64,000 nt of DNA, taken from Pseudomonadota bacterium (GTDB lineage Bacteria; Pseudomonadota; Gammaproteobacteria; Burkholderiales; Burkholderiaceae_C). The DNA is taken from the NCBI GenBank assembly GCA_029780695.1, contig JAKOYD010000164.1:62001-126000 (forward strand). Reading direction: 5' to 3'. Positions within the stretch are counted from its first letter, which is position 1; each line of letters begins with the position of its first letter. The notes below the pieces were generated by a model that ran no database searches, was not told the DNA's origin, and saw only the letters and a list, made by a program, of their open reading frames with translations. The translations under genes and the position numbers were made by a program. Positions 38,695 through 56,276 of the stretch are shown in pieces.

Positions 38695-38743
38695 TTGGTG
38701 GGTGATGCAGGGTTTGAACCTGCGACCCCTGCCGTGTGAAGGC
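38695..38743. repeat. Left attachment site: 49-bp copy of the tRNA-Val 3' end
   Basis: Exact copy of 56201-56249, covering the CCA end, T-arm and anticodon stem side of tRNA-Val(CAC). The match ends at 38743 and the rest of a tRNA is missing, so this copy is not a gene. Marks the left boundary of the 17.5-kb element. Confidence 0.92.
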
Positions 38744-38821
38744 CGGGCTACGATGGTTCTTAGGGGATGTTGATGGCGCATTTCCCTCTGAGTACTCCTT
38801 CATGATCCATCAAAATCCACC

Positions 38822-38827
38822 TATAAT
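38822..38827 (+). promoter_or_regulatory. Integrase promoter -10 with adjoining CCGTAC repeats
   Basis: Perfect TATAAT with a weak -35 TTCATG at 38799-38804 (17-base spacer). The predicted start point falls among three CCGTAC repeats at 38831, 38842 and 38851, so an integrase bound to these would repress its own gene. Confidence 0.5.
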
Positions 38828-38830
38828 TTT

Positions 38831-38857
38831 CCGTACTCTCTCCGTACTTTCCGTACA
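38831..38857. repeat. Left arm-type repeats (CCGTAC x3)
   Basis: CCGTAC at 38831-38836, 38842-38847 and 38851-38856, spaced 11 and 9 bases. Two copies with the same 11-base spacing are near the right end at 56117 and 56128. Presence at both ends of the element suggests arm-type integrase sites. Confidence 0.55.
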
Positions 38858-38869
38858 AGGAGCAAGCGG

Positions 38870-40066
38870 ATGCCGATCATCAACACAGTCGCCGGTCGAG
38901 ACAAACTCAAGCCGCGGCGCGAGCCGTATTGGCACAAAGTCAGCACCGGTTGCTTTCTCGGGTTCCGAAAACAGTCGCAGTCTACCGCAGGCACGTGGGT
39001 GGCCCGGTGGCGCGACGACACAGGCAAACAACAATACCGCGCGCTGGGCGCCTTTGACGACCTTCCGCCCAATGCCCGCTTCGATGCCGCGATGCGGTCA
39101 GCCAACCAATGGTTGACCCATGTTGCTGGGGGTGGCAGAGCGAAGGAAGTCACCGTCAGGAGTGCTTGCGAGCGTTACGTGGCCCACCTTCGGGCCGAGA
39201 AGACAGCCGATGCCGCCGACGATGCCGACAAGCGGTTTCAGCGCCACGTCTACACCCAGCCGATTGCCGCGATCGCCATGGACAAGCTGCGCCCGATCCA
39301 CGTCGACACCTGGCGCAAGCGATTGCAGGACGGGCCAAAACTGGTGGCCGGACGCAAGCCAGCCAACCAATCCGCCAGCCCCAAAGACCCGAACGCCAAG
39401 CGATCGGCGGCAACGCTCAACAGGGACATGACCTGTCTGCGCGCGGCCCTCAACCTGGCATATCGCGACCAGATTGTGTTGAGCGATGCCGCTTGGTCAG
39501 TGAAGCTGCTGCCGATCAAGAAAGTGGGCGGCCGGCGCACCCTCTACCTTGACCGGGACCAACGCCAATCCCTCATCGACCACATGGACGCCGATCTTGC
39601 GCAGTTCGCCCGCGCCATGAGCAATGTGCCGCTGCGACCGGGCGCCCTCGCCGCCCTGACCGTCGGCCGGTATGACAAGCGCCTGCGCGCCCTGCACGTG
39701 GGCAGCGACAAGGCGGGCGCTGATCGCTCAATCGTGCTGCCCGCAACCACAGCCGCACAGTTCGAGCAGGCGGCAGCCAGCAAACTGCCGGGCGCCCTGC
39801 TGTTCACGCGGGGAGACGGTGCAGGATGGGACAAGGACAAGTGGAAATGGCCAGTCAAGGCCGCTGCGGCCGCAGCCGAGCTACCTGCTGAAACCACGCT
39901 CTACACGCTCCGGCACTCCGTCATCACGGACCTGGTTGTGGCCGGCGTCGATCTGTTCACGGTGGCCAAGCTGGCCGGAACCAGCGTGCGGATGATCGAG
40001 GAACACTACGGGCATTTGCGCAGCGATGTGACGGCATTCGCTCTGGAAAAAGTAGCACTCAACTAA
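38870..40066 (+). CDS. Site-specific tyrosine integrase
   Basis: 398-residue tyrosine recombinase that would insert and excise the element at tRNA-Val. Catalytic residues: Arg257 (NVPLRPGAL), Lys near 281, Arg348 (TLRHS) and Tyr380 (EEHYGHL). The His normally three before the second Arg is Tyr345, and the later His/Trp is Thr, as in one large proteobacterial subfamily. N-terminal 90 residues form an Int-SAM-like/arm-binding region. Strong AAGGAG Shine-Dalgarno. It lies next to the truncated att copy, at the opposite end of the element from the intact tRNA gene. Confidence 0.93.
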   Translation: MPIINTVAGRDKLKPRREPYWHKVSTGCFLGFRKQSQSTAGTWVARWRDDTGKQQYRALGAFDDLPPNARFDAAMRSANQWLTHVAGGGRAKEVTVRSACERYVAHLRAEKTADAADDADKRFQRHVYTQPIAAIAMDKLRPIHVDTWRKRLQDGPKLVAGRKPANQSASPKDPNAKRSAATLNRDMTCLRAALNLAYRDQIVLSDAAWSVKLLPIKKVGGRRTLYLDRDQRQSLIDHMDADLAQFARAMSNVPLRPGALAALTVGRYDKRLRALHVGSDKAGADRSIVLPATTAAQFEQAAASKLPGALLFTRGDGAGWDKDKWKWPVKAAAAAAELPAETTLYTLRHSVITDLVVAGVDLFTVAKLAGTSVRMIEEHYGHLRSDVTAFALEKVALN

Positions 40067-40072
40067 CCAAAT

Positions 40073-40129
40073 TTGCCGGCCCTAGGCTGATCCCCGAACA
40101 CCCGTTTCCCCGACGGGCCGGGCCGGCAA
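40073..40129. terminator. Long GC stem-loop downstream of the integrase
   Basis: Perfect 10-bp arms TTGCCGGCCC (40073-40082) and GGGCCGGCAA (40120-40129) around a 37-base loop, beginning 6 bases after the integrase stop. No U-tract. Possible terminator or structured origin-like site. Confidence 0.35.
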
Positions 40130-40161
40130 CCCATCGTTTAGGGGGGGGCGTGGGGACGCGC

Positions 40162-40863
40162 ATGGACAAATCGTATTTGCCTTGGAAGTTCGCTGATAGC
40201 TTCACCACCGAAGAGGCTGCCCAGTTGATGGCCGGTATTCACCCCGCCGCGTTCGGGCCCCACAACAAAGTTCTGATTCACCCCATTGTTGAACGAATCA
40301 CTTCTGCACACGCTCAAGCAGCAAGCGAGTTAATGAGGCGCTTTTCAGCCACAGAGAACGGCAGTGTGGCTCGTGTCGAATCCGATGCGGCGAACTTATC
40401 GGCAGGAGCTCTGCCCGACCTATGGTTTGAACTGCTTGCTGATGACCCTAGCAACGCCGACTTCTACGATTACGAAGGCCTATACCGCGTGGTTTGGCTG
40501 CGGGTTGATGGCCCGGTCGCTCCGAACTTCAGTCACGCGGCACTCGCCAAATGGATAGAGACGAACAACCTTCCGAGTGCATATGACTTCATGAAGCGGG
40601 AGCCCGTCGCCAGCGTGGCCACAGTATCACCAATAGCATCGCGATCACAAGAACCGGACTACAGGGCGCAATACGCCGCGGTCGCGTCAAACCCTGAGCA
40701 GCGCCGTCAGCTCCTGATCGAGCTAAAGAAGACGCTGAAATCAGACGAAAAGGTCGGCAATGCCATCGGCATCACCCGCCAGGCCGTCGCCAAACAACTG
40801 CGTTCCTCTGGTGCAGCCGACCACCACAAGAACGACCCGTTCGCCCGAACTGCACCGCGCTAA
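40162..40863 (+). CDS. Unknown element protein with C-terminal HTH-like helix pair
   Basis: 233 residues from ATG 40162 (a GTG 12 bases upstream is alternative). The N-terminus LPWKFADSFTTEEAAQLMAG resembles a short segment seen in other phage and element proteins. The middle has no assignable fold. The last 50 residues include GNAIGITRQAVAKQLRSSG, which looks like a helix-turn-helix. Codon usage is less GC-biased than the flanking chromosome. A regulator of the element is possible, but I do not recognise the family. Confidence 0.6.
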   Translation: MDKSYLPWKFADSFTTEEAAQLMAGIHPAAFGPHNKVLIHPIVERITSAHAQAASELMRRFSATENGSVARVESDAANLSAGALPDLWFELLADDPSNADFYDYEGLYRVVWLRVDGPVAPNFSHAALAKWIETNNLPSAYDFMKREPVASVATVSPIASRSQEPDYRAQYAAVASNPEQRRQLLIELKKTLKSDEKVGNAIGITRQAVAKQLRSSGAADHHKNDPFARTAPR

Positions 40864-40872
40864 CGGTAGCGC

Positions 40873-40985
40873 GGTTGCGGCAACCGGCGCAACCATAACA
40901 ATCCATAACAGTCACAAGTGCTTCCAGCACTGAATTCATTGCTATCGTTTTCATAGGCAACCAGGTTGCGTATTGCGGCAACCGG
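40873..40985. repeat. Cluster of GGTTGC/GCAACC repeats upstream of alpA
   Basis: Six copies of GCAACC or its complement at 40873, 40880, 40889, 40957, 40964 and 40978, including a 13-base direct repeat TTGCGGCAACCGG at 40875 and 40973. Between them 40895-40955 is AT-rich. Could be operators for the AlpA-like protein or iterons of a replication origin. Confidence 0.5.
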
Positions 40986-41025
40986 ACATTGCTTGGTGCA
41001 ATTGCTCCCACATCAGGAGCACCCA

Positions 41026-41301
41026 ATGTCCACCACCGCCAACAACACCCGCAAGCCACGCATCCGCACGCAGTCCATCGACGTGCTGCGCATCCCCGAC
41101 GCGCTGGTGCGCGAGCCGATCGTGATCGAAGCCTCTGGCCTGTCGGGCTCGACCATTTACCGCGAAGTCCTCGCTGGGCGCTTCCCGACGCCCCGCCGCG
41201 TCGGCAACTTGAAGCTGTGGGTAGCGAGTGAACTGACCGACTGGCTCAAGGCTCAGGCGGAAGGCCGGGCTTGGACCCCGACACAGCGCGCCGCGGCTTG
41301 A
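41026..41301 (+). CDS. AlpA-like excisionase/transcription regulator
   Basis: 91 residues from ATG 41026, with an AGGAG Shine-Dalgarno. A MerR/AlpA-type helix-turn-helix: SGLSGSTIYREVLAGRFPTP followed by LWVASELTDWLKAQ. AlpA proteins of P4-like elements control integrase expression and excision. Its upstream region holds a dense repeat cluster. Confidence 0.8.
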   Translation: MSTTANNTRKPRIRTQSIDVLRIPDALVREPIVIEASGLSGSTIYREVLAGRFPTPRRVGNLKLWVASELTDWLKAQAEGRAWTPTQRAAA

Positions 41302-41489
41302 AGGGGCGCCATGTCGCCCACCATCCACTGCGCGGGCCGATCCCGCCAGCCACGCGCGCCGCGCCTGTCCGAGCAGGCCGCGCCGATCAACCCCGCCGGC
41401 GCGCGGGGAAACCAACACCGTTTTGGCGCAGGAGGTGCCTCGCGGTGCTACCAATATTGGAGCACCAGGATTAGACACCACAAAGAGAA

Positions 41490-41520
41490 AGCGCCGCACG
41501 GTTGGCAGACCGGCGGCGCT
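41490..41520 (-). terminator. Strong hairpin with weak U-tract on minus strand
   Basis: Stem AGCGCCGC-CGGT / ACCG-GCGGCGCT with one bulge and a six-base loop. On the minus strand it is followed by TTTCTCTTTG. The 258-bp interval 41302-41559 contains only this structure and no convincing gene. Confidence 0.35.
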
Positions 41521-41559
41521 CGGACGAACACGAAAGAAAACAAGAATCACGACTCTGCC

Positions 41560-41736
41560 ATGCGCGTCACGCGCCGCGCAAGCGATCAGGACTACCTGGG
41601 CGGTCTGCTGGCAGGGGCGTGCACATGCCGGCTGACCGCTCCGCGGCTGTGCCCGCAGTGCTCGCACATGGCGAGTTATGTGACTGAGGTCACGATCCGC
41701 CGTGCCGCATGGCGGGCGTGGGGGGTCGGGGCATGA
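41560..41736 (+). CDS. Small Cys-rich protein
   Basis: 58 residues with CTCRLTAPRLCPQCSH, four Cys and a His in a zinc-knuckle arrangement. The stop overlaps the next gene's start (ATGA), which supports translation. No family recognised; only the overlap and the metal-binding pattern support it. Confidence 0.45.
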   Translation: MRVTRRASDQDYLGGLLAGACTCRLTAPRLCPQCSHMASYVTEVTIRRAAWRAWGVGA

Positions 41737-41948
41737 CCACGCCAACCAATCCCACTGACCAAGCGAAGGCCCTGGCCACGCTGCAGGCGGAGTTCGCGCT
41801 GGCCGGCCATACCCTGACTGCGAGCGTTCGCGCCGATGGCTCGCCCTGTCTGGTGGCGAGCCGCTGGGGGTTGACCCGCGAGTTGCGCGATCCCGATGAA
41901 GCGCACGAATTCCTGCAGCAAATTGGGGGGCGGCATCATGGGCTTTGA
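41733..41948 (+). CDS. Small unknown element protein
   Basis: 71 residues (MTTPTNPTDQAKALATLQAE start), no motif. Likely a compact alpha/beta fold by composition. It overlaps the preceding small gene by 4 bp and the CHC2 gene by 11 bp, so the three are a translation-coupled set leading into the replication genes. Confidence 0.55.
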   Translation: MTTPTNPTDQAKALATLQAEFALAGHTLTASVRADGSPCLVASRWGLTRELRDPDEAHEFLQQIGGRHHGL

Positions 41949-42396
41949 CCGCACCCACCTACCCGAAACCGTCTCGTTTTTCGAGGGCGAAGGGCTGCCC
42001 CTGACCGGACGGGGTAAGTGGCGATCCACGCAATGCCGCTTCCATGGCGGCAGTGACAGCCTGCGCATAAATACCGAGTCCGGGGGCTGGTGCTGCATGG
42101 CCTGCGGTGCGCACGGCGGCGACGTGTTGGCCTACCGCATCGCTGTCACCGGCGAGGACTTCATCACAGCAGCCAAAGCGCTGGGCGCTTGGGTGGAAGA
42201 CGGCCGCCCTGCTCCCCGCAACCCGGCCCCGCTGTCGCCGCGCGATGCCCTGACGCTCCTGGCCAGCGAGGCCAACCTGGCCGCCGTCGCTGCAGCCAAC
42301 GTGGGCCGCGGCGTGGCACTCAATGCAGCCGATTGCGAGCGCTTGCTGGTGGCCGTAGGCCGCATCAACCTCGTGCGGGAGTGGTATCAGCCATGA
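41938..42396 (+). CDS. CHC2 zinc-finger (primase-like) protein
   Basis: 152 residues. Primase-type zinc ribbon: Cys33, His36, Cys52 or 53 and Cys56 (TQCRFHGG and GGWCCMACGAHGGD), then ITAAKALGAW typical of the DnaG N-terminal domain. No TOPRIM or catalytic primase domain follows, so it may bind DNA or partner the host primase. ATGA overlap with the RepA-like gene. Confidence 0.75.
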   Translation: MGFDRTHLPETVSFFEGEGLPLTGRGKWRSTQCRFHGGSDSLRINTESGGWCCMACGAHGGDVLAYRIAVTGEDFITAAKALGAWVEDGRPAPRNPAPLSPRDALTLLASEANLAAVAAANVGRGVALNAADCERLLVAVGRINLVREWYQP

Positions 42397-43748
42397 CCGC
42401 GAGCATCGAAGCCATTGAGGCCAGGGCAGACGCCGCTATCAAGCAGGCACGGCAGAAGGAGCCGCCGCCGTTCTACGGCGAGGGTGATCCCGAGGCGCAG
42501 CCCCAAGAGGTCGCGCCGCCGTTTCGCGCGCTGGACATAGCCAAGCTGGCTCACGAAGACCCACCGCCGCCGCGCTACCTATGGGCGCAACGCATACCCG
42601 TCGGCCTCGTGACCATGCTCGCAGCACATGGTGGCGTGGGCAAGTCAACGCTGATGAGCATGCTGGGCATCGCCGCGGCGTCCGAACAGGATTTCCTGGG
42701 CCTGCCGACGCTGGCAGGCCCGGTGCTGATGCTGTCGGCCGAGGACGGCGAGCGCCTGTTGGGCTACCGCATCAAGACGATCTGCCGCCACATGAGCGTC
42801 GATCCGGCAGACCTTGTCGACAGCTTGCACGTCCTCGATGCCACCGAAGGCCAACCTGAGATGTTCCGCGACGGCAAGACGACCGTGACGCTGGCTGCAC
42901 TGCGCAACGAGGTCGAACGCCTGCGGCCGGTTCTGATCATCCTGGACAACGCGAGCGACGTGTTTGCCGACAGCGAGATCGATCGCGCCGCGGTGCGCGG
43001 TTTCATGCGCGAGCTGGCCAAACTCGCTGCCCACGCCGACGCAGCCGTGGTTCTGATCGCCCACGTCGACAAAGCCACCAGCCGAGGCGATCGTGTCGTC
43101 AACAGCGAGGCGTACAGCGGCAGCACGGCATGGCACAACAGCGCACGCAGCCGCCTGTTCCTGAGCCGGGACAAGGATGGCCTGCTCAGGCTCGAGCACC
43201 AGAAGTGCAACGTCGGCCCGCTTGCGCCGCCGCTGGTACTGACTTGGCCGCAGGACGGCATCCCCATGCTCGATCAGCCACTCAGTCCGGTCACCCAGCA
43301 CCTGGCCGACCGGAACAACATTCGCGCGATCCTGCGCCTGATCCACGAGTTCGAGCAGCGCGGTGAATATGTGACGACGGCGACCACGGCGCGCGCGCAC
43401 GCCGGCAAGCTTTTCGGACGCGAACAGACATATCCGCGTCTCAAGGACGCAGAACTGTTCGGCCTGTTGCGCGACGCTGAGCGTGCCGGGCATATCGAGC
43501 GCTTCAACTACAAAACTGTCGGACGCAAGGACGCCCAGCGGTGGCGGCTGACCGCATCGGGGGCCGCCTTTGCCGGCATTTGTGCGCCGACTGCGCCAAC
43601 TGCGCCGACTTCACCTGATTCGGAGGTAAGCGCAGCGGGCGCGAAGGCTGCGCCAACTGCGCCGACTTCGGCGCTAGGGGGTGTGGGGGAGAGAGCGCGC
43701 ACAAAGTCGGCGCAAAAGGGGGGTGGCGATGCTCGCGCCGACTTCTGA
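42393..43748 (+). CDS. RepA-like AAA ATPase (AAA_25)
   Basis: 451 residues. Walker A HGGVGKSTL (79-87), Walker B VLIILDNASD, and STAWHNSARSRLFLS, the pattern of the RSF1010 RepA/AAA_25 family of hexameric replicative helicases found on plasmids and phage elements. The C-terminal 90 residues are low-complexity with PTAPT repeats. ATG 42393 overlaps the CHC2 stop; a longer upstream reading in this frame is out of the real coding context. Confidence 0.82.
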   Translation: MTASIEAIEARADAAIKQARQKEPPPFYGEGDPEAQPQEVAPPFRALDIAKLAHEDPPPPRYLWAQRIPVGLVTMLAAHGGVGKSTLMSMLGIAAASEQDFLGLPTLAGPVLMLSAEDGERLLGYRIKTICRHMSVDPADLVDSLHVLDATEGQPEMFRDGKTTVTLAALRNEVERLRPVLIILDNASDVFADSEIDRAAVRGFMRELAKLAAHADAAVVLIAHVDKATSRGDRVVNSEAYSGSTAWHNSARSRLFLSRDKDGLLRLEHQKCNVGPLAPPLVLTWPQDGIPMLDQPLSPVTQHLADRNNIRAILRLIHEFEQRGEYVTTATTARAHAGKLFGREQTYPRLKDAELFGLLRDAERAGHIERFNYKTVGRKDAQRWRLTASGAAFAGICAPTAPTAPTSPDSEVSAAGAKAAPTAPTSALGGVGERARTKSAQKGGGDARADF

Positions 43749-43938
43749 CCCGCGATCGGTTTTGCGCCGACTTCAACCCGCCACCCGCCGCGCCTGCGAC
43801 CACTGGGGCGACAGCGAATCCGCGCGCCAGGCGATGCGCGACCGGCTTGCCGAGGTCCAGCCCGAGCACCATGGTGCGCTGCTGACGCACTTTGAGCGCA
43901 CCTACCCCGCACAGGAGATCGACCCATGGGCGCGATGA
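43729..43938 (+). CDS. Small unknown element protein
   Basis: 69 residues from ATG 43729 with a purine-rich upstream stretch (AAAAGGGGGGTGG). It overlaps the RepA-like stop by 20 bp and the nuclease start by 13 bp. Charged helical middle (SARQAMRDRLAEVQ). No family recognised. Confidence 0.5.
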   Translation: MLAPTSDPRSVLRRLQPATRRACDHWGDSESARQAMRDRLAEVQPEHHGALLTHFERTYPAQEIDPWAR

Positions 43939-44348
43939 GCCGAACGAAGGGCAAGGCCGGCGAACGGGAAATCGCCAACCTGCTGGCCGATCTGACCGGC
44001 TGCGACGTGCGCCGGCGCGTGCGGCAGCACGACGGCGACAGCGACCTGGAGGGCCTGCCGGGCTGGTGCGTGGAGGTCAAGCGTCACGCCCGCGCCACTC
44101 GCGCCTGTATCGCCGACTGGTGGGACCAGGCCATCGCCCAGGCCGAGCGCCACGGCGGCACCCCCTTGCTGCTGTTCCGCCAGGACCGGGACGCCTGGCG
44201 GGCTGTCTGGCCACTATCGGTCAGCCTGACCGCACCCTCAGCGGAAATCTGGCGCGGCTACCCGTGGACGGTCGAGGGCTCGCCCGAGGCTTGGGCAGCC
44301 GTATTCCGCGAAACCATCACCAGCCACCCTAAGGAAAGCAACCCATGA
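43926..44348 (+). CDS. PD-(D/E)XK nuclease, resolvase-like
   Basis: 140 residues. Core of the Hjc/VRR-like restriction-nuclease fold: GKAGEREIANLL (Glu13 or 15), then Asp40 and EVK (Glu50, Lys52) in DGDSDLEGLPGWCVEVKRH. Similar small proteins in phage replication modules are annotated as Holliday junction resolvases. Good AGGAG Shine-Dalgarno. It overlaps the SSB-like gene by 4 bp. Confidence 0.75.
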   Translation: MGAMSRTKGKAGEREIANLLADLTGCDVRRRVRQHDGDSDLEGLPGWCVEVKRHARATRACIADWWDQAIAQAERHGGTPLLLFRQDRDAWRAVWPLSVSLTAPSAEIWRGYPWTVEGSPEAWAAVFRETITSHPKESNP

Positions 44349-44743: not shown

Positions 44744-44754
44744 GGACTCCAACC

Positions 44755-45428: not shown

Positions 45429-45439
45429 AAGGCAACGAC

Positions 45440-45736: not shown

Positions 45737-45900
45737 TGTGGCGGTTGCTCCTGCTGGGGCTGGGCGGTGTCCATCGTGTGGAACTGGCGCGCACGGGGTT
45801 GAACCTTATGGAAACCTTAGTACTGACCGTATTGCCCGCCCCACGGACAGCGCGGCTGTTTGCCAGCCCTCGCCCTCGCCATTCCCTTGGAGTGCAGTCC

Positions 45901-46605
45901 ATGATCGACGCCCTCATCGTCGGCCGCGTTCACGGTCAGCCAGTTGGCCGCACCAGCAAGAACGGCCGCCAGTCCGTGACCACCAAGCTGCGCGTTCCGA
46001 CGGCCAGCGGAGATAGCTTCTTCGCCAACACCATCGCTTTCAGCGAAACCGTGCGCACGGGCTTGCTGGCCCTTGGAGACGGCTACAGCGTCGCCCTGGC
46101 CGGCAGCCTGACGCCCGGCATCTGGCATGACCGTTATGGGCACGCCCGCGTGTCACTCGACCTCAGCGCGCACGCCGTGGTCAGCCCGTACCACGTCAGC
46201 CGCAAGCGCGACGCGATGGCCAAGCCCAAGAAGTCGGACAACCCGCCGAGCGCGGGCTTTTTCTTGGTTAGGCGGCGTTTTTGTATTGACATTAATCATT
46301 GTTGTCATTACAATAACAGCATGCAAATCGAGTTCGACACCGCCAAGGACGCCGCCAACCAGGCCAAGCACGGCGTGTCGCTGGCCGACGCGGCTGAACT
46401 CGATTGGGGCCTGCTGCTGTGTCGCCCGGACATGCGCCGCGACTATGGCGAGCTGCGCGAGATCGGCTTTGCGCCCATCGGCGCGCGCGTGCATTGCGTG
46501 GTGTTTGCCCAGCGCGGCGACAGCATCAGGATCATCAGCCTGCGTAAGGCCAATTCCCGAGAGGTGCAAGACTATGCCCAAGCCCTTGAACAAGCGGGCC
46601 TTTGA
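45901..46605 (+). CDS. Second SSB-like gene, read through in frame into BrnT
   Basis: SSB-like OB-fold region of about 119 residues (MIDALIVGRVHGQPVGRTS start, GGAG Shine-Dalgarno), paralogous to 44345. It has no stop codon before brnT, so the frame runs on through 46605 as a 234-residue fusion. The acidic SSB tail is absent; after AMAKPKK the reading passes through a terminator-like hairpin (46242-46263) and the brnT promoter. Probably an SSB gene truncated by arrival of brnTA. The fusion itself is unlikely to be the working product. Confidence 0.6.
   Translation: MIDALIVGRVHGQPVGRTSKNGRQSVTTKLRVPTASGDSFFANTIAFSETVRTGLLALGDGYSVALAGSLTPGIWHDRYGHARVSLDLSAHAVVSPYHVSRKRDAMAKPKKSDNPPSAGFFLVRRRFCIDINHCCHYNNSMQIEFDTAKDAANQAKHGVSLADAAELDWGLLLCRPDMRRDYGELREIGFAPIGARVHCVVFAQRGDSIRIISLRKANSREVQDYAQALEQAGL
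46242..46263 (+). terminator. Rho-independent terminator inside the ssb-brnT frame
   Basis: Stem CCCGC/GCGGG with a five-base loop, followed by CTTTTTC. Ribosomes on an mRNA ended here would meet no stop codon, as the reading frame is open across it. Confidence 0.5.
46286..46314 (+). promoter_or_regulatory. brnTA promoter and operator
   Basis: Consensus -35 TTGACA (46286-46291), 17-base spacer, -10 TACAAT (46309-46314). The start point, about seven bases later, coincides with A of the brnT ATG (46321), so the transcript is predicted to be leaderless. An ATTGT-N7-ACAAT inverted repeat spanning the -10 is a candidate BrnA operator. Confidence 0.7.
46321..46605 (+). CDS. brnT: Toxin BrnT
   Basis: 94-residue RelE-fold ribonuclease toxin of the type II BrnT/BrnA system. 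Typical start MQIEFDTAKDAANQAKHGVS and later RIISLRKANSREVQDY. The promoter places the transcription start at the ATG. Overlaps brnA by 32 bp. Confidence 0.85.
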   Translation: MQIEFDTAKDAANQAKHGVSLADAAELDWGLLLCRPDMRRDYGELREIGFAPIGARVHCVVFAQRGDSIRIISLRKANSREVQDYAQALEQAGL

Positions 46606-46855
46606 AGTGCCCACGGCGGCGGAAGACGCCGCCATCGCCCGAGGCATTGCAGCCGACGCCGACACGTACGAGGTCCCCAGCGAGCAGATCGCCGGCATGC
46701 GCCGCCTGGGCCGCCCACCGGTGGCGGTTCCGCGCCCCATGCTCAGCATGCGGGTGGATGCCGCCCTGCTGGAGAAGCTGCGCGCCAGCGGGCGTGGCTG
46801 GCAGACGCGTGTGCACGCGGCACTGAAGGAGGCGGTAGACAGCGGGCGGCTGTAA
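46574..46855 (+). CDS. brnA: Antitoxin BrnA
   Basis: 93 residues. Ends with the ribbon-helix-helix segment RPMLSMRVDAALLEKLRASG and a helical tail, as in BrnA antitoxins, which bind BrnT and repress the operon. It starts inside brnT. Confidence 0.85.
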   Translation: MPKPLNKRAFEVPTAAEDAAIARGIAADADTYEVPSEQIAGMRRLGRPPVAVPRPMLSMRVDAALLEKLRASGRGWQTRVHAALKEAVDSGRL

Positions 46856-47478: not shown

Positions 47479-47898
47479 ATGATCGAAGCTGTCAAAACCC
47501 ATCCTCTCCCCGCGCTCAAGTGGTCGCCCCTGATCGGCCTGCCCGACGGCACATCGCTCGTGTTGCCGTGCCAGGACTCGCATGCTGCGGCCATCCTCGC
47601 CGCCGATACCGAGGCCGACGCGCGGCTGGCCCAGGGCTCGCCAGTGGCGTGGACGGGCGCCCGGCGCCACATCGAAGCAGGCGACTTTTCCGACCCGCGC
47701 GTGATGCTGACACGTCCCGGCGATCCCCGCTGCGGCCGGCTGTGGCGCGAGCACGAAACCGGCTTCGAGCAGGGGAGCGACGGCCCCACGCTCCTGGTCA
47801 TTGGCCGCCAGGCCGACGATGCTCAACTGGCTCGCATGGCGCAGCGCTTTGGCGTGCCACTGACGCAGTTGCAAGCGTTCCGGGGAGTGCAGGTATGA
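47479..47898 (+). CDS. Unknown element protein
   Basis: 139 residues; the Shine-Dalgarno (GGAG) lies inside the preceding gene, 3 bp away. Regions LPDGTSLVLPCQDSHAAAI and LLVIGRQADDAQLARMAQRF. No family recognised. 4-bp overlap with the next gene. Confidence 0.5.
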   Translation: MIEAVKTHPLPALKWSPLIGLPDGTSLVLPCQDSHAAAILAADTEADARLAQGSPVAWTGARRHIEAGDFSDPRVMLTRPGDPRCGRLWREHETGFEQGSDGPTLLVIGRQADDAQLARMAQRFGVPLTQLQAFRGVQV

Positions 47899-48360: not shown

Positions 48361-48455
48361 GGGCGCAGTTGCTTGCGCAAAGCAGCACCCTTGGCTAAAC
48401 CTTGACATCCACCCACTGGCACAAGCTCGAAATGTCAGGTTTTCATCCGCCCTGA

Positions 48456-48472: not shown

Positions 48473-48561
48473 ATGGCGAGTCCCTCGGTTCGCCCGTGTG
48501 CGGCGGGATCAACCGCGCCCCGCGTAGGCCTTGGGCGACCATGGCGATGGTGCCGCCCCTG

Positions 48562-49068
48562 CTACACCGGCACGAACCCGACGCCCTGAGACTCGCCCCG
48601 GCGCTCCAGTTCCTGGCGTGCCTTGACGATTTCTGTCCGGTCGCTGCAGTCGTGCGCTGGCAACTCCCTGGCCGCCAGCGCGTGCAGTTTGGCCAGGCGC
48701 TCGGCCTGCGCATCCGCGCGGGTGGGCGGCGCCACGCTGGGCGCCGCGGCCGCTGCCGGCTCGGGCAGTTCGCGGGTGATGCCCAGCACCTTGAGCCCGA
48801 TCACTTGCTCAATGCGGCGGGCCAGGTCGTCCTGACTGCGGGTGACGACCACCAGCGGGCGGAACATGTCCTCGAACTTGACGATCATGCGCATGGCGCG
48901 CGGCAAATTGGTGAAGGCGTTGCGCTGGCTGGCCTGGCTGAACTCGTAGCCGGCGTCCGCGCCGCTGGAGAACATGTCCGGCCGCAGGGTCGCCGCGATC
49001 TCGCCCGACAGGACGGCGAAGCCGCAGGCGGCCATTTGCTGGTTGACGTAATCGACGGCTTTGCTCAT
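48562..49068 (-). CDS. Unknown protein of the late-type operon, ends GFVPV
   Basis: 168 residues, mainly helical, with an Ala/Pro-rich hinge near residue 105. C-terminal residues GFVPV match a short motif repeated in the large protein just upstream. AGGAG Shine-Dalgarno; 4-bp overlap with the upstream gene. Last gene of the operon. Function unknown. Confidence 0.65.
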   Translation of the reverse strand: MSKAVDYVNQQMAACGFAVLSGEIAATLRPDMFSSGADAGYEFSQASQRNAFTNLPRAMRMIVKFEDMFRPLVVVTRSQDDLARRIEQVIGLKVLGITRELPEPAAAAAPSVAPPTRADAQAERLAKLHALAARELPAHDCSDRTEIVKARQELERRGESQGVGFVPV

Positions 49069-52000
49069 GGTTGGCTCCTTTGCTTCTGGGCGTCGCGGGT
49101 TTGCTTTACCGCGTTCTTGATGAAGTCGTTGCGCTGCCGGATCAGATCGTCCAGGCGCTCGCGCTTTTCGTCGGGCGTCAGCACTTCCGAACGCCGGACA
49201 TCGCGCATGTCCTTGTTGATGCCCGACAGTTCATTGTTGGCGTACTCAAGGGCGCCAGCCTCCTCGCCAAGGGGTCCTTTTTCCTTGGCGTCGGCCATGT
49301 GAGACAGCCCCAGCTTGTCCAGCTCGCGCAGCGTGCCGCGCAGGCGCTTGGCCTCGGTAAGCATGTCGTAGAACTCGGTTTCGTAGCGGGTGCCGCGGGG
49401 CGGATCGTCGGTGTAGAAACGCCGCAGGATCGGCAGTTCGTCGGTGCGCTTGGTCGGCAGCCGGTCGCCAAAGAAGGCCTTGTCGCTGAGCTGCAGGCCG
49501 TACAGCGCCCAGGTGTTGAAAAACCCCCTCAGCAGCGCCTCGCTGCGTGCCGGGTTCACCTGCGCCCACTCGGGCAGGTTGGCCGTGGCCATGCCGGCCG
49601 CGCGCAGGGTTTCGCTGGTGGTCGGCTTGGCGCGCAGGAACGGCTGCAAGTCTTCCATGCCGGGCGTCTCGATCGGCGCCTTGGTGAAGGCGTTGCGGTT
49701 GGTCGCCTGCTCGTACAGCGGCGCCACAAGCTGAGGCATGTAGTTGAAGTTGAACGTCGCGGCCAGGATGCGCGCGAAGTCCTTGCCGATGCCCTGCGGG
49801 TCGGCCTTGATGATCGCTTCGGTCGAGCGTTCGGCCAGCGAAGCCATGGCGCCGATCTCCCAAATTTTGGGGTAGCGGAAGTGCTGGTCGCCGACGAAGA
49901 AGTGCCAATGACCGTCGCGGTCCCAGTCCGGCATGTCCTGATACTTCGGGTTGTCCTTGTTGAGCAGGTACAGTGCCGAACTCATGAGCGCGACCATGCC
50001 TGACTTGGTGGCGATGGCGCCACGGTTCGGGTCGTGCGCCAGGCCGCGCACCAGGCGATCCAGCGACGTGATCGCGGGGCGCAAGACCGTATCGGTCATG
50101 AAGCCCAGTGCGCGACTGTCTCCCCGCATGGCGAAGTCCGTGCTGATCTCGCGCGCCAGGTAGGCGGCGTGGCGCGGGTGTTCGCCGGCCTGGATGGCCC
50201 GGCTGTACTCGCCCAGGCGCGTGCTGGTTTCAAAGGCGTCGGCCAGCGTCTCCACGAAGCCCATCAGCTTGTCAGGCGCGTCGAGCACCGTGCGCATGTC
50301 GATGCCCTGCTGCTTGTAGAACCGCTCCAGCCGGGTCTTGAAGCGGCCTTCCTCCAGGTAGATGCTGGACAGGCCGCCGCCGTTGGCGATGAAGTCCTTG
50401 TACAGCGGATCATTCGTCAGCCGCATCCGCATGCCCTTGAGGCTGTCGAGCACCGGCCGGAAACCGGCGCGGCTCATGACGCCTGCTTGGATCGTGTCGC
50501 GGGCGATGTTGGCGATCATGAAGTCGGGCGTCAGCGTGATCGTGGTCTGGCCGATGCGCTTGGGCAGGCTCAGCCACTTCATGACCCACGGCTGGTGCGG
50601 CCGGTCGATGCTGTCCAGCGCGCGCAGCAGGATCGGGTCGGCGACCTCGTACCAGACGGGCTTGCCGTTCTTGAGCACGGCCACCACGTTGCTGCCGGCG
50701 GGCGGCGTGTTGTTCTGCATGACCTCGATCAGGCCGGGTGCGTCCTCAAAGGTCTTGTGCAGGCTGTCGATCACCACCTTGGCCTGCTGGTCGGCCTTGT
50801 CCAACCCCATGGCCTTGGCCATGCTGTCGATCACGGCGTCCTTCGGCAGCCGCGTCGGCCGCGATTCGGGCGGGATGCGGGTCATGAAGCGCCCGCCGCC
50901 GGCGCCGTCCCGCTCGGCCAGTTCGGCGATCTTCACGCGCGCCTCGTTCTTCACGGCCTTGTCGATCAGCATCGCGGCGTTGCTGGTCATGTTGCCCAGG
51001 ATGTCGCGCAGGTTCTCGGTGCCGCCAGTCAGCGCCTTAACGCCCGACCAGTCACCGGGCTTGACGCGGCCCTGGCCAGGCTGGCCGATGCGGTGGAATG
51101 GCAGGTACTGCGTGCGCTGCCATTGCGCGCGCGCCTCGGCGTTGATCACGCCCTGAGCCTCGGCGAAGTCCAGGATGGCGCCGTTCCACTGCTGGTACTT
51201 GGTGAAGGCGGCGTCGAATTCAGGCGTGCGCAGGCTCAGCATGGCGTCGATCTCGCCGCGCGTGAACAGGTGTTCGCGCCCCTGCTTCATCAGTTCGTCG
51301 GCCGACTTGCCCACGAAGTACAGCAGGCCGTCGTCCAGGTTGCCGGCGATCGGCTTGAGGATTTCTTCCAGCCCCTGCCCTTTCCACGAAAACGAGCCGT
51401 CGGCGTTCTTCACCGGCGCGCCGTAGCGCAGGGCGCCGTCGGCCATGCTGGCGGATGCGCGCGCCAGGCGGGCGGATTCGTAGGCCCCGGCCGGCGCGAT
51501 CTTGCCGCCCGACAGTTCCCGCTCCATCCGGTAGACGCCGTGCAGGTCGTCGGTGATGGCTTGGCGAAAGGCGTCCCAGCGACTGTCCATGGCGTCGGAC
51601 AGCGGGCGGTGATCGCCGATCTTGCTGCGCGCGCGGTCGAGTGCGTCCTGCGCGAACCATTCGCCCATGCCCTGGCGCGCCTTCTGGATCGCCGGGCCGT
51701 ACTTGTGCGTCTGCACGAAATCATCGAACCAGCGCGAGAAAGTCGGCGCCTTCGCCGCAGCCACGTCCGGCTGCGTCATGTACAGGCGCGTGAACTCGGC
51801 AAACCCCTCGTACACCTTGCCGTTGTCGTAGCTGAGTGCGCGCAGTTCCTTGTTGATCATCTTGGCCTGCGGGCCTTTCAGCCACGCCTCGCGCACGGCC
51901 GGCACGCGGCTGTCGATCAGGTGCGCCATCTCATGGGTGGCAACCTCCAGGTCGGCGTGCCGCTTGACGCGGACGGTTTCCGTGGCGGTGTTGAAGGTGC

Positions 52001-53945
52001 CCAGGGTCTTGCGACCACGGACGCGGCCGGTGTAGATGCTGGTTCCCAGCTCCTTGGCGAACGGGACCAGAATGTCCTCGCGTCGAATGGGTGTGGCGCG
52101 CGCCTTGCCGCCCGTGCCTGCATCCGCCATGCCGCCGCCTGCCGTGCCTGGGCGGGTCACGCTGTCATCGATCAGGCCGACGTAGTTGGCGCCCGGCCCC
52201 ATGTTGACGGTGCCGCGCTTCGGCAGCACGTCGCCAGCGTCCGGCACGGAAAGGGCCGCGCGCTCCGGCGCGACCTCCGGCGTGACTCTCGGCGCTTGTT
52301 CAGGCGGCCAGGCCGGCGCCGACCGCGGGCCGGCAGTTTCATCGGCCAGCGTCAGGCGCGCCAGCGTGGGCGTCATGCCCGGCTGCCGCATCAGTTCGGC
52401 GTAGCGCGGGTTGCCGTCGAGCAACTGAACGTGCGATGTGCCGGTGACGCCGTCGTGCACGCCGTCGGCGGTGGTGACGGCGCGGCGCTCCAGCGCATCG
52501 GCCGCCGCGCGGAAGGACGTGGCCACGTCGGGCACGCCTTGCGCCGCCATCTCATCCGCTGCCGCGCGGACCCGCGCCGCCTCGCTGCGGTAGCCGTCCA
52601 CCCGGCGCATGGGGTCGGCGACCACGGTGTCGATGTTGTCGACCAGGTTCTGCGCGACAACGTAGGTTCCGCGCTGCTCGGGCGTGAGCTTGGTTTCCAT
52701 CAGGTCGATGGGCGGCGCGTCGGGCGCCAGGCCTTCCGGCGCCAGCAGTTCAGGCGCCATCGCGTCGGGACCGTCGCCCGTAAGGCGCGGCTCGCTGGCG
52801 TCACGGGGCGGGCGTGGGATGGGTTGGGCATCGTCCAGCGGCACGAATCCGCCACGCGGTTCGCTACCGCGCGCGACAGGGCGACCGGCGCGACGATCCC
52901 AGTTGGCGATCGTGTCGGCGACGGTCTTGCCCTTGAGGTACTGATTCGCCGCCAGTTGCTTGGCCGTCAGCAGTTCGGCGATGGGCGTGTCCGGCGCGGC
53001 GCGCGCGATGCGTACAGCGGCATCGGGGCCGAAGTGGTGCGCCGCGTACATCGTCTGGTTGGTGATCTCCACGCCGGCCGAGCGCAGCGCCGCGGCGTTG
53101 CTGGTGTCCAGAGCGCGTGCCATCTGGCCGGATTTCGCCGGATCGGCGCGCAGGGCCAGCAGTTCCTCGGGCGCCAGGCCAGCAGCCCAATCTGGTTTTG
53201 CCTGCTCCACGGTGCGAAGCCAGGTGCCTGCGGTGAACTGATCGGGGCCGTAGGCCGTGCTGCGCGGGTTCTTGGCGGTCGCGCTGCCGCCAGATTCCAG
53301 GGTGCGCCGATAGGCGTGATAGTCGGCAGCGTCGAACCGCGGCGACGGCGGCGCAGCGCGACCGCCCGCCTTCCAGCCCAGCATGCCCGGCGCGACCATC
53401 GGCAGCGACTGAATGGCGGTGTCGACCACCGTGGCAGCCACGGGGCTGCCGGTGGCGTCGAGCGTCTTGCCGCCGGCCCAGTGCGCGCCCTCGGCCAGCT
53501 TCTCGAAGGGGTAGGCCACGATGCCGGCGCCGCGCTGGCCCAGCTCGCCGCGCGGCTGATAGGTCAACGCCTCGCCAACCGACTGCACCACGTCAGCGCC
53601 GCGCCTGTCGGTCAGCCCGAGCTGGTGCGCGGCCTCGGTGGCCAGCCCTGCCAGGCCGGCAACCGGCTGCGACACGCCCATGCTGCCCAAGCTCAGCGCG
53701 ACCTCGCCAAGGGCGGTCAGCGGGTTGTTGAGCAGGATGTTTCGCAGCACGCCGGGTTTACCGGGTGCCGGAGCGGCGCCGCCGCCTTCGGCGACTGGGA
53801 CGAAGCCGGGCTGTCTACCCGTTTCGGCCGCCGGCGCCTGGGGCTCCAGCTCGGCGAGAGGGACGAAGCCGCGGCGTGCGGCCGTCGGGGAGGGTTGCGC
53901 CTCGATGGTGTCGCCATCGATCTCGGAGAGAGGAATGAAGCCCAT
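49065..53945 (-). CDS. Large polyvalent phage internal virion-type protein
   Basis: 1,626 residues from ATG 53945 (a GTG three codons upstream is alternative). In order: GFxP motifs at 2-6, 26-30 and 47-51; hydrophobic helices; transglycosylase-like domain about 205-330 with Glu217 in TLESGGS; another GFVPL at 366-370; HExxH (THEMAHLID, His671) in a putative metallopeptidase; and a long C-terminal region like the LPD38 segment of phage polyvalent proteins (about 1150-1500). Resembles podovirus DNA-ejection proteins such as T7 gp16, though only by architecture. No neighbouring capsid genes. Confidence 0.78.
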   Translation of the reverse strand: MGFIPLSEIDGDTIEAQPSPTAARRGFVPLAELEPQAPAAETGRQPGFVPVAEGGGAAPAPGKPGVLRNILLNNPLTALGEVALSLGSMGVSQPVAGLAGLATEAAHQLGLTDRRGADVVQSVGEALTYQPRGELGQRGAGIVAYPFEKLAEGAHWAGGKTLDATGSPVAATVVDTAIQSLPMVAPGMLGWKAGGRAAPPSPRFDAADYHAYRRTLESGGSATAKNPRSTAYGPDQFTAGTWLRTVEQAKPDWAAGLAPEELLALRADPAKSGQMARALDTSNAAALRSAGVEITNQTMYAAHHFGPDAAVRIARAAPDTPIAELLTAKQLAANQYLKGKTVADTIANWDRRAGRPVARGSEPRGGFVPLDDAQPIPRPPRDASEPRLTGDGPDAMAPELLAPEGLAPDAPPIDLMETKLTPEQRGTYVVAQNLVDNIDTVVADPMRRVDGYRSEAARVRAAADEMAAQGVPDVATSFRAAADALERRAVTTADGVHDGVTGTSHVQLLDGNPRYAELMRQPGMTPTLARLTLADETAGPRSAPAWPPEQAPRVTPEVAPERAALSVPDAGDVLPKRGTVNMGPGANYVGLIDDSVTRPGTAGGGMADAGTGGKARATPIRREDILVPFAKELGTSIYTGRVRGRKTLGTFNTATETVRVKRHADLEVATHEMAHLIDSRVPAVREAWLKGPQAKMINKELRALSYDNGKVYEGFAEFTRLYMTQPDVAAAKAPTFSRWFDDFVQTHKYGPAIQKARQGMGEWFAQDALDRARSKIGDHRPLSDAMDSRWDAFRQAITDDLHGVYRMERELSGGKIAPAGAYESARLARASASMADGALRYGAPVKNADGSFSWKGQGLEEILKPIAGNLDDGLLYFVGKSADELMKQGREHLFTRGEIDAMLSLRTPEFDAAFTKYQQWNGAILDFAEAQGVINAEARAQWQRTQYLPFHRIGQPGQGRVKPGDWSGVKALTGGTENLRDILGNMTSNAAMLIDKAVKNEARVKIAELAERDGAGGGRFMTRIPPESRPTRLPKDAVIDSMAKAMGLDKADQQAKVVIDSLHKTFEDAPGLIEVMQNNTPPAGSNVVAVLKNGKPVWYEVADPILLRALDSIDRPHQPWVMKWLSLPKRIGQTTITLTPDFMIANIARDTIQAGVMSRAGFRPVLDSLKGMRMRLTNDPLYKDFIANGGGLSSIYLEEGRFKTRLERFYKQQGIDMRTVLDAPDKLMGFVETLADAFETSTRLGEYSRAIQAGEHPRHAAYLAREISTDFAMRGDSRALGFMTDTVLRPAITSLDRLVRGLAHDPNRGAIATKSGMVALMSSALYLLNKDNPKYQDMPDWDRDGHWHFFVGDQHFRYPKIWEIGAMASLAERSTEAIIKADPQGIGKDFARILAATFNFNYMPQLVAPLYEQATNRNAFTKAPIETPGMEDLQPFLRAKPTTSETLRAAGMATANLPEWAQVNPARSEALLRGFFNTWALYGLQLSDKAFFGDRLPTKRTDELPILRRFYTDDPPRGTRYETEFYDMLTEAKRLRGTLRELDKLGLSHMADAKEKGPLGEEAGALEYANNELSGINKDMRDVRRSEVLTPDEKRERLDDLIRQRNDFIKNAVKQTRDAQKQRSQP

Positions 53946-53957
53946 GGCGGCCACCGA

Positions 53958-55559
53958 TCAGCGGTAATAACCGATGAGCTTGCCGCGCGAATCGAGGACT
54001 TCCACGCCCCGGTCGGTGGACTGGCCAAGCTTGTATTTGTTCATGCTGGCGTCCGAACTGAACCGCTTGGCCAGGTCCTGACGGGCGCGGGTGGCCGCAT
54101 CCTGCTGCTGGCGCAGCGCGGGGCCGCGCGGCGCGGTGTCGAAGGTGTCGTCCTCGCCGATCTTGCGGCGGTTGGCCAGCGCCGCCTGGCGCGCCAGGCC
54201 GGGGTCATAGTTGGGGTTCTCGCGCCCGGTGTTCGTGGCCTTGCTGGTGCGGCGCCGGATTTCCTCAAGCGAAAGCCCGTTGATCGCCTCGCGCGCGGCG
54301 TCGATTTCAGCATTGCTGCGTTGCTGTGCCGAAGTCAGCGGACGGTCGACAGGGTTGCCGCGGGCGTCGAGTTGGCGGGTCAGCCGCTGGTCGGCCGCGT
54401 CAATGCCGCGCTGCGCACGCCGGTCGGCGGCTTCGATCTGCTGCGCCGTGCGGGCGTCGCGCCGGTCCTCCATGGCGTCACGGCCGACCTGGCGCTGCGC
54501 CTCCAATACCTGTTGCCGCTGCAACTGTGCTGACTCGGCGGTGCGCTTGGCGCCCTGGTTTGCGTAGAACTTCACCGCTTCATGCGGCGCCAGAAAGATG
54601 GCGGCCTGGCTCAGCAGGTCGTCGGTGGGCTGCGTCACTGCCCCGAGTTCCTGGCCATCCGCCCCGAACTGCGTCACGGTCATCGTGTTCGGTTCGCGGC
54701 CGGGCTGAAGTTTCACCGTGTTGCCGTCCCTATAGAGCTGCCTGTTGTAAAGGTTCTCGAATGACTGCAGCGCGCCTCGCGTGTCGCCGATGGAGAACTT
54801 GCGCACGCCGTCGGTCCAGCCCCGCGCGTAGTCGCGCCCTTCCTGGGTGTCGAGAAACTTCTGGTATGCCTGCGCCTGATCCACCTTGCCCTGACGCAGC
54901 AGCACGTCGATCACCTTGGGGGTGCTGGTCTTGAGGTAGTAGTCCAGGGCCGAATCGTTGGCGACCCGCTTGGCAATCTGGCCATTTGCGGAAGCTGTGG
55001 CTTGCTCGATGCCACCCACAGCGCCTGCGCCGGGCGCCGTCATCTCGGGCGCGCCGCGCAGGGCCTGCTGCAGCTCGCGGCGGTCGGCGTCTTCGCGTTC
55101 GGACTTGTCCAGTGCCAGCGAAGCGCTGGCCGCCCGCATCGGATCGGTCAGGGCGCCGGCCTCGATCAGTTTGCGCGCGCGCATGGCACCGACCTGGCCG
55201 GCGGTAAGGGCGCCAGCGGTGCGCTCGCCCATGAAGTCGGTGACCGTGTGGCGGCTGATGACCTGACTGGGCATGACGCCTTGGCCCTGGCCGGGGTTCT
55301 CCGCCGTCGGCGTTGCCGTGTAGTTGCCTTGGGCGTCGGTGCCGATCTGGTAGAGCGGGTTGCCCAGCACATCCTTAGCGTTGGCCAGTGCCTCCAGCTT
55401 GCGGCCGTCCTCGGCGGTGTAGCCCTGCATCTGCTCTGGCTTGGCCTTCAGCGCAGCGTCGATGGCCTGATCCTGCTGAATCTGCCGGCCGACGCTGTAG
55501 CTCTTGATGCCGCCGGACACCAGCCCGGTAATGAAGTTTGCGGCGACTCTATTAGCCAT
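53958..55559 (-). CDS. Phage internal virion-like protein, long helical
   Basis: 533 residues from ATG 55559 (GGAG Shine-Dalgarno). Gly-rich N-terminus with a possible hydrophobic segment, then long Gln/Arg/Asp-rich helices (QVLEAQRQVGRDAMEDRRDA). Length, order and composition are like the second ejection protein of podoviruses (T7 gp15 type). Lies 12 bp before the 1,626-residue gene, in the same operon. Confidence 0.65.
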   Translation of the reverse strand: MANRVAANFITGLVSGGIKSYSVGRQIQQDQAIDAALKAKPEQMQGYTAEDGRKLEALANAKDVLGNPLYQIGTDAQGNYTATPTAENPGQGQGVMPSQVISRHTVTDFMGERTAGALTAGQVGAMRARKLIEAGALTDPMRAASASLALDKSEREDADRRELQQALRGAPEMTAPGAGAVGGIEQATASANGQIAKRVANDSALDYYLKTSTPKVIDVLLRQGKVDQAQAYQKFLDTQEGRDYARGWTDGVRKFSIGDTRGALQSFENLYNRQLYRDGNTVKLQPGREPNTMTVTQFGADGQELGAVTQPTDDLLSQAAIFLAPHEAVKFYANQGAKRTAESAQLQRQQVLEAQRQVGRDAMEDRRDARTAQQIEAADRRAQRGIDAADQRLTRQLDARGNPVDRPLTSAQQRSNAEIDAAREAINGLSLEEIRRRTSKATNTGRENPNYDPGLARQAALANRRKIGEDDTFDTAPRGPALRQQQDAATRARQDLAKRFSSDASMNKYKLGQSTDRGVEVLDSRGKLIGYYR

Positions 55560-55705
55560 GTGGACTCCAGTGATTGAACTGGCGGCAGTGAGCCACATGG
55601 GGATCGAAAAGCGGAATGATCGATTGATTCCTCATCCTCGCGGCTAGCAGAAGGCTTTGCCGGCTACCATCGCATTGCGACAAACCGTCGAGAGAGGGAT
55701 ACACC

Positions 55706-56092
55706 GTGAAGAAGCTTGCCGTTCTCCTTTTGGCCGCCGCCTTGGCTGGCTGCGCAACAGTCAACTACCAGCCGTACGAAGGCAAGAACAACCTCCATGA
55801 AGGCCAAGGCGGCACGAAGGTGGTGATCGACGGCGTGGACTTCTGGGCGAATGGCGCGCCACCAAGGAAGTACACCATCATCGGCGTGGCCGACGGTGAA
55901 ATCGGCGAGGGAATGGGAGATACCCAAGCTATCCGCCAGGCCGTGGCCAGCGAGATCAAGAAACAGGGTGGCCACGGCGCCATCGAGATGGGCGGTAGTT
56001 CATCCTTCGGCGGAATCATGCCCGTGGGCGGACTGATGATGGCCCTGAACAACAAGAAAATTCGCTACCAGGTGATCAAGTACGTGGATTGA
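55706..56092 (+). CDS. Small lipoprotein, element cargo
   Basis: 128 residues; GTG start at 55706 with a GAGAGAGG upstream. Signal peptide with lipobox LAGC (Cys16), then GGTKVVIDGVDFWANGAPPR and a Gly-rich C-terminal hydrophobic patch. Divergent from the late-type operon. Position at the end of the element suggests a cargo (moron) gene expressed in the host; role unknown. Confidence 0.72.
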   Translation: MKKLAVLLLAAALAGCATVNYQPYEGKNNLHEGQGGTKVVIDGVDFWANGAPPRKYTIIGVADGEIGEGMGDTQAIRQAVASEIKKQGGHGAIEMGGSSSFGGIMPVGGLMMALNNKKIRYQVIKYVD

Positions 56093-56116
56093 CGTGGGCT
56101 GCGCGAATCAGGTTTT

Positions 56117-56133
56117 CCGTACTTCTTCCGTAC
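56117..56133. repeat. Right arm-type repeats (CCGTAC x2)
   Basis: CCGTAC at 56117-56122 and 56128-56133, 11 bases apart, matching the first two copies at the left end (38831, 38842). Confidence 0.55.
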
Positions 56134-56136
56134 CGG

Positions 56137-56167
56137 AAACAAAAACGCCCGCTAAGTTAGCGGGCGC
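56137..56167 (-). terminator. Element-supplied terminator for tRNA-Val
   Basis: Minus-strand hairpin GCGCCCGCTAA/TTAGCGGGCG followed by TTTTTGTTT, 34 bases past the 3' end of the tRNA. It lies inside the element, replacing the chromosomal terminator now 17.5 kb away at 38654-38688. Confidence 0.75.
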
Positions 56168-56200
56168 TACCACTGCAAGGCGCAGCGAATATAGGAATTC

Positions 56201-56249
56201 TTGGTGGGTGATGCAGGGTTTGAACCTGCGACCCCTGCCGTGTGAAGGC
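56201..56249. repeat. Right attachment site within tRNA-Val
   Basis: 49 bases identical to 38695-38743, covering the 3' half of tRNA-Val(CAC). Right boundary of the element. Confidence 0.92.
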
Positions 56250-56276
56250 AGTGCTCTACCGCTGAGCTAATCACCC
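56202..56276 (-). tRNA. tRNA-Val(CAC)
   Basis: 75 nt including an encoded CCA. Acceptor GGGTGAT/ATCACCC, D-arm AGCTCAGCGGTAGAGC, anticodon loop TTCACAC (anticodon CAC, reading GTG), T-arm GGTTCAAACCC. Complete, but its 3' half now comes from the element's attachment site. Confidence 0.95.

Follow-up and report, generated by a model that had tools for sequence, protein, structure and literature searches.

Phage satellites are generally thought to borrow their ejection proteins, and the capsid-forming members of the phage-inducible chromosomal islands (PICIs) are a known exception to satellites without structural genes. In short-tailed phages, ejection proteins are required for infectivity, as described in the part of PMC8954989 available to us. 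Here, we describe an element of ~17.5 kb lying in a 64-kb window, the whole stretch of DNA analysed (G000:C6:62001-126000), from a draft genome (G000; 180 contigs, 83.8% complete, 6.5% contaminated). The element, inserted at tRNA-Val(CAC), is probably a phage satellite of the integrative type with podovirus-type ejection genes of its own. This reading is based on insertion, gene content, recurrence and selection, all read from the sequence.

The element is framed by identical 49-bp direct repeats, the longest exact repeat in the 20-mer listing of the window. The first 20 bases of the repeat have no third copy on either strand of the 64-kb window, and by our estimate the probability of a 49-bp exact repeat arising by chance in 64 kb is negligible (<1e-15). 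The G+C content of the element is 65.9%, against 67.8% in the remaining window. Its boundaries and integrase are placed as follows:

38695-38743, no strand: left attachment repeat, 49 bp, identical to 56201-56249
56201-56249, no strand: right attachment repeat, 49 bp, identical to 38695-38743
56202-56276, minus strand: intact tRNA-Val(CAC), overlapping the right repeat
38870-40066, plus strand: tyrosine integrase, 398 aa (PF00589, E 3.4e-6; phrog_1, E 2.3e-34)

A previous sequence-only reading had proposed that a tyrosine-integrase element occupies the 3' end of tRNA-Val(CAC), which is borne out by the direct repeats, the integrase inside them and the empty site in relatives. Its coordinates for both 49-bp copies, the right one within the tRNA, were reproduced, and the integrase that it placed 127 bp inside the left copy, with its PF00589 and phrog_1 matches, starts with an ATG at 38870, 126 bp interior to that repeat. 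It had also regarded as unusual the position of the integrase at the end away from the intact tRNA; the layout is real, but is common to the elements of G516, G518, L081 and Sneathiella. The Dechloromonas denitrificans element has the opposite layout.

To follow the site in relatives, the neighbouring gene dnaQ was sought in 29 genomes of the genus and found in 27. Eight (G413, G492, G497, G504, G505, G507, G509 and G510) have an empty site, in which one tRNA-Val core, with dnaQ after it, adjoins the left flank of the window, and in G516 the site is filled by a related 16.2-kb element. In the remaining genus genomes, the left flank differs or lies beyond the reach of the available sequence. 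This is the comparison that the earlier reading had suggested, and neither outcome that it had named as contrary, relatives carrying the region without the repeat pattern or a site never seen empty, was encountered. G495 is not counted as occupied; ~5.8 kb of unrelated sequence separates its left flank from the tRNA, with no second core copy. G518 carries another element of 10.9 kb at the same tRNA-Val (L094:3951-14892), with AlpA and an integrase ~50% identical, and encodes an HK97-type capsid, an S78 protease, a portal and a large terminase, resembling a capsid-forming satellite.

Among a 100-genome family sample, a related integrase, at 45-54% identity, was found in five genomes besides the window's own. 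In three of these it is preceded by the tRNA-Val core (48/48 bases in L054; a 25-base stretch, 92% identical, in both L055 and L056), and none was found there in L053 or L057. The T-arm of tRNA-Val(CAC) varies in form within the genus (L025-L052), and the form in the repeat is present in the three occupied loci (window, G516, G518) as well as in several empty ones. G000 itself has a second hscA-dnaQ-tRNA-Val locus on contig C89 (L006:2844-5945); at ~74% identity to that of the window, it was rejected as an empty-site allele and is taken as a divergent second locus that probably comes from contamination by another genome.

The feature that sets the element apart is a minus-strand operon at 48562-55598:

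53958-55598, minus strand: internal virion protein (IVP), 546 aa, or 533 aa from a later start (phrog_9667 'virion structural protein', E 4.6e-13)
49065-53954, minus strand: polyvalent protein of 1,629 aa with a transglycosylase domain (phrog_4067, E 3.5e-20) and LPD38 (PF18857, E 3.6e-40)
48562-49068, minus strand: F2, 168 aa, recurring in related elements by alignment

The two larger genes contradict the earlier statement that structural phage genes are absent. The IVP has relatives at 26-31% identity in Burkholderia phages BcepIL02 and CSP3 and in Pseudomonas phage Skulduggery; the BcepIL02 annotation and one of the Skulduggery records call them virion proteins. The late region of BcepIL02 ends with the IVP-like gene and, after it, a gene for a giant DarB-like polyvalent protein. 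In viral contigs, no IVP relative was found with the single sequence, and three loci were found with an alignment. The LPD38 region has relatives in Vibrio phage FGH and Thalassomonas phage BA3, with identity to isolate phages of at most 28.3% among the 40 of 64 matches listed. Since this region is without a match in 72,556 plasmid records, a plasmid or conjugative element was rejected; general scans of the window genes gave no conjugation families, no search aimed at conjugation genes having been made.

F2 of the window and of L080 has no match in 50,697 isolate-phage records, and a longer F2 (L082) matches phrog_296 weakly at its C-terminus (E 2.8e-5). The predicted structure of F2 (mean predicted local distance difference test score, pLDDT, 80.6; predicted template modelling score, pTM, 0.55) found no PDB match at E <= 0.001 in a fold search. 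The F2 profile matches in 20 of 399 genomes of the order, starting from the N-terminal end only in G000, G111, G046, G048, G092 and G100; the others match over the C-terminal part alone, chiefly the helix-turn-helix region of longer F2 proteins. In G092, an integrase is the sole labelled gene near the F2 match (L139).

Beyond the window, the N-terminal parts of ten LPD38 proteins were scanned: three match endolysin or lytic families (L084, L087, L088), five match families of unknown function and two match nothing. An N-terminal part that changes while LPD38 stays conserved would fit a role in entry.

We then compared the window with G516 using a simple Nei-Gojobori script to obtain ratios of nonsynonymous to synonymous substitution (dN/dS). 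The ratio is 0.092 for LPD38 (1,626 codons), 0.105 for the IVP and 0.038 for the integrase, and 0.23, 0.24 and 0.44 for F2, AlpA and the open reading frame (ORF) at 40150, alongside 0.07-0.18 in four flanking host genes. Values for the genes at 47479 and 47907 (0.46 and 0.62) were not used, the G516 starts having been set by length. Between window and G516, the LPD38 and IVP genes are open and evolve under purifying selection. Synonymous divergence (dS) is 0.04-0.18 for integrase, AlpA, F2, LPD38 and IVP versus 0.16-0.68 in the four flanking genes; recent horizontal transfer was considered and dropped because the more distant left flank (33000-36480) is also 97.4% identical and the ORF at 40150 has a dS of 1.0.

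The operon recurs in elements of ~13-24 kb in Beta- and Alphaproteobacteria, whose tRNAs and integrases differ. Searches with LPD38 retrieved relatives at 48-79% identity (best segment) in eight bacterial loci, and at 59-67% in viral contigs, except L090 at 36% on a 40-kb contig. The lineage as we count it has 24 loci including the window and G516, namely 21 in the tree plus L110, L113 and L114, and leaves out L090 and repeats of one contig. Elements were mapped by a simple longest-ORF script and several loci are fragments; members of sufficient length share integrase, helicase, IVP and LPD38, and some have F2, F7 or F8. A maximum-likelihood tree was built from 32 LPD38 rows. It places 19 element rows together (100/99), with two alphaproteobacterial rows joining them at 100/100, and leaves ten isolate phages and L090 outside; the tree carries a long-branch warning, and the prophage row G270, without a BLAST match, was dropped. 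Direct repeats bound six lineage members and L140, one with a diverged LPD38:

Window: tRNA-Val, 49-bp repeat, 17.5 kb
G516: tRNA-Val, direct repeat, 16.2 kb
Dechloromonas denitrificans ATCC BAA-841, environmental strain: tRNA-Arg, 20-bp repeat, 13.4 kb
L081: tRNA-Asn, 51-bp repeat, 17.7 kb
Sneathiella chungangensis: tRNA-Ala, 50-bp repeat, 24 kb
L076, Sulfuritalea assembly: no tRNA called, 18-bp repeat, 17.6 kb
L140 (G046): tRNA-Glu, 44-bp repeat, 12.9 kb, with F2, an IVP-like ORF (by position) and LPD38 29% identical

Attachment repeats were sought and not found in 11 loci: Dechloromonas sp. (two tRNAs), Ottowia beijingensis (whose element adjoins tRNA-Asn), L072, L080, L082, L086, L088, L099, L137, L138 and L141. 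L110, a 16.9-kb viral contig of the lineage, shares 19 bases between its ends (1-19 and 16848-16866) and is possibly an exact element or circle. F2 and small-terminase-like genes occur without LPD38 at L137:10987-18953 and L138:10818-11940, and in L137 the place of the operon is taken by two further large ORFs (791 and 684 aa). L141:1282-11259, near tRNA-Lys, combines F2 with a 2,326-aa LPD38 protein (29% identical), an ORF that is IVP-like by position and a weak match to a small terminase; it perhaps represents a second, diverged lineage.

The plus strand carries, in order, the integrase, a 237-aa unmatched protein, an AlpA-like regulator, an AAA ATPase, a PDDEXK nuclease, small ORFs and BrnT/BrnA, with a further gene beyond the operon:

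41026-41301, plus strand: AlpA-like regulator (PF05930, E 3.5e-7; phrog_2790)
42393-43748, plus strand: AAA_25 replication ATPase, primase/helicase-like (PF13481, E 7.4e-31; phrog_906; scanned from 42090)
43926-44348, plus strand: PDDEXK nuclease, RusA-like (PF24608, phrog_244)
46321-46605, plus strand: BrnT-type toxin of a toxin-antitoxin pair (PF04365, E 1.8e-21)
46574-46855, plus strand: BrnA-type antitoxin (PF14384, E 9.9e-12)
55706-56092, plus strand: small lipoprotein-like gene in the putative cargo slot (ORF; lipoprotein look judged by eye)

The place between the ejection operon and the near element end appears to be a cargo slot. It holds the lipoprotein-like gene in the window (55706-56092), a methyltransferase in G516 (L058:17784-18464) and both in O. 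beijingensis (L070:7153-8351), whose lipoprotein-like gene is 80% identical to that of the window.

Capsid, portal and large-terminase genes were not recognised in the window by Pfam and PHROG scans. For the lineage, Pfam and PHROGs were run on 83 ORFs that similarity had left unlabelled, each at least 150 aa long, taken from the window, G516 and 13 other loci, and no such family is among the 14 Pfam families or the 25 of 72 PHROG families listed. In another 40 ORFs, taken from both Dechloromonas elements, Sneathiella, O. beijingensis, L110, L113 and L123, Pfam gave 22 families, again none of them capsid, portal or large terminase. ORFs under 150 aa fell outside the first scan, and L137-L141 were compared with our own gene labels only. 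Among the families listed are a single small terminase, a single endosialidase-chaperone domain and a weak match to a Clp protease (E 2.4e-4); proteases of the Clp type also act in the heads of some phages. F8 of L110 matches phrog_4287 'DNA ejection protein', and F8 of L084 has the endosialidase-chaperone domain (PF13884), which is typical of tail fibres.

Several matches count against a strict claim that no other virion genes are present: a weak tail-fibre match in Sneathiella (E 5.5e-4), the LPD38 N-terminal parts in L084 and L087, which match 'minor head protein' or 'virion structural protein' families, and a tape-measure-like protein at L123:7043-8911, on the same G520 contig as the L113 element. 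Another tape-measure-like protein lies beside an ejection-gene element at L016:9984-12299; the genes at L123 and L016 perhaps mark satellites with a long-tail counterpart.

A small terminase is present in 10 of the 24 lineage members, by PHROG in L072, L083, L081, L088, Dechloromonas sp. (phrog_1206) and L082 (E 1.5e-5), and by similarity or clustering in L078, L084, L113 and L114. L086 and L089 clustered with small terminases and were not confirmed by the profile.

These features suggest how the element might travel. By analogy with PICIs, as treated in the part of PMC6092414 available to us, a helper phage would induce it; AlpA and the integrase would excise it, its own module would replicate it, and its DNA would be packaged into helper heads. 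As the searches gave no small terminase for the window, its element would use the terminase of the helper or mimic a packaging site. By analogy with phage ejection proteins (PMC8954989), those of the element would be loaded into the helper heads and expelled first, opening a way through the wall by which the satellite DNA would enter the next cell.

Several points weigh against a satellite with its own ejection genes. Satellites are described as lacking viral structural genes in the part of PMC13376191 available to us, and among the matches listed from the open-licence full-text literature we found no paper on satellites with an ejection cassette. Of 399 genomes of the order, just 4, counting that of the window, yielded an IVP relative. 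The small-terminase profile, run on 16 sets, is clear only in L082 and L113, gives a short relic-like stretch in G516 (E ~5e-5) and finds nothing in the window, D. denitrificans, O. beijingensis or ten others; Dechloromonas sp., negative with this profile, carries a different small terminase. A second LPD38 gene, which would mark a related helper, was not found in the host genome (84% complete). The case is known here from sequence alone, with no excision, induction, helper or particle seen. In the light of the part of PMC11773190 available to us, we consider that the missing small terminase is not fatal to the satellite reading.

The strongest alternative, itself unlikely, is a remnant prophage, in which a Bcep22-like temperate podovirus lost its head, portal, terminase and tail genes and kept its integrase, its early genes and its last late genes. 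The phage-related virion genes, in the same succession as at the end of the BcepIL02 late region, would fit such a history, as would the lack of a small-terminase profile match in the window and the stretch in G516, which may hold a terminase relic. In O. beijingensis, the IVP, LPD38 and ATPase genes appear interrupted, which could be decay or assembly error. Deletion is harder to reconcile with the same genes being missing from related elements in different hosts, tRNAs and integrases, with LPD38 proteins that form one clade apart from isolate phages, and with open IVP and LPD38 genes under purifying selection.

It is very unlikely that the element is an anti-phage island, rarely or never packaged, whose ejection-like proteins serve to ruin helper particles or to keep phages from entering. 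Interference with helpers is common among satellites (in the part of PMC6092414 available to us), and the BrnT/BrnA pair and cargo slot are present, but the mobility features are intact and under selection, as in the integrase, and those ten relatives also carry a small terminase. A complete small phage with capsid and terminase too diverged for recognition is most improbable: several genes are unmatched, PHROG and Pfam are incomplete and one PHROG scan covers the listed families only, but head, portal, terminase and tail genes would find little room left in the element, no such match came from the largest unlabelled ORFs, and the lone small terminases in relatives fit a borrower.

If the element is a satellite with its own ejection genes, we tentatively suggest that a general, undescribed strategy may be at work, in which satellites replace the DNA-delivery machine of the helper rather than build heads. 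For podovirus helpers they would supply ejection proteins whose N-terminal domains can be swapped, and for long-tailed helpers perhaps tape-measure proteins; a particle built by the helper would then inject the DNA of the satellite together with its proteins. Such replacement could widen the range of recipients, protect DNA on entry or sterilise helper particles. A satellite lineage with its own ejection proteins would separate the builder of the particle from the controller of DNA entry, would make it testable whether ejection proteins set recipient range, and would supply compact natural ejection cassettes for study. F2, LPD38 and the small terminase would be markers for satellites otherwise called prophage remnants.

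Among known systems, polyvalent proteins, in the part of PMC5512222 available to us, share with this locus LPD38 and peptidoglycan-cleaving domains, the latter within proteins thought to be injected with DNA; they are described there for phages and conjugative elements, and the word 'satellite' is absent from that part. Charybdis elements, which are 4.6-kb circles in the part of PMC12324425 available to us, were set aside as unrelated. BcepIL02 resembles the window in its IVP relative followed by a giant polyvalent protein, and phages FGH and BA3 do so in their LPD38-region relatives, but these LPD38-bearing podoviruses have genomes of 36-63 kb, with head genes annotated in BcepIL02 and FGH; the head, portal and large-terminase genes of a complete temperate podovirus were not found in the window by the Pfam and PHROG scans.

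Gram-negative PICIs (the available part of PMC6092414) are alike in size, a specific attachment site, integrase with an AlpA-type regulator, and a replication module, present here as AAA_25 and primase/helicase PHROGs, and in a small terminase, carried by some relatives of the window element. They differ in that the window element carries virion ejection genes, the IVP and the LPD38/transglycosylase protein, and that a small terminase was not found in it. PICIs are not known to carry virion genes beyond packaging genes (available parts of PMC6092414 and PMC13376191); because the element departs from this feature, we do not file it as a Gram-negative PICI. Capsid-forming PICIs likewise place virion genes on a satellite, and the G518 element has that layout, with related integrase and AlpA at the same tRNA. 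Their own capsid, protease, portal and terminase are present in G518 and were not found in the window, whose virion genes are an ejection set rather than a head set.

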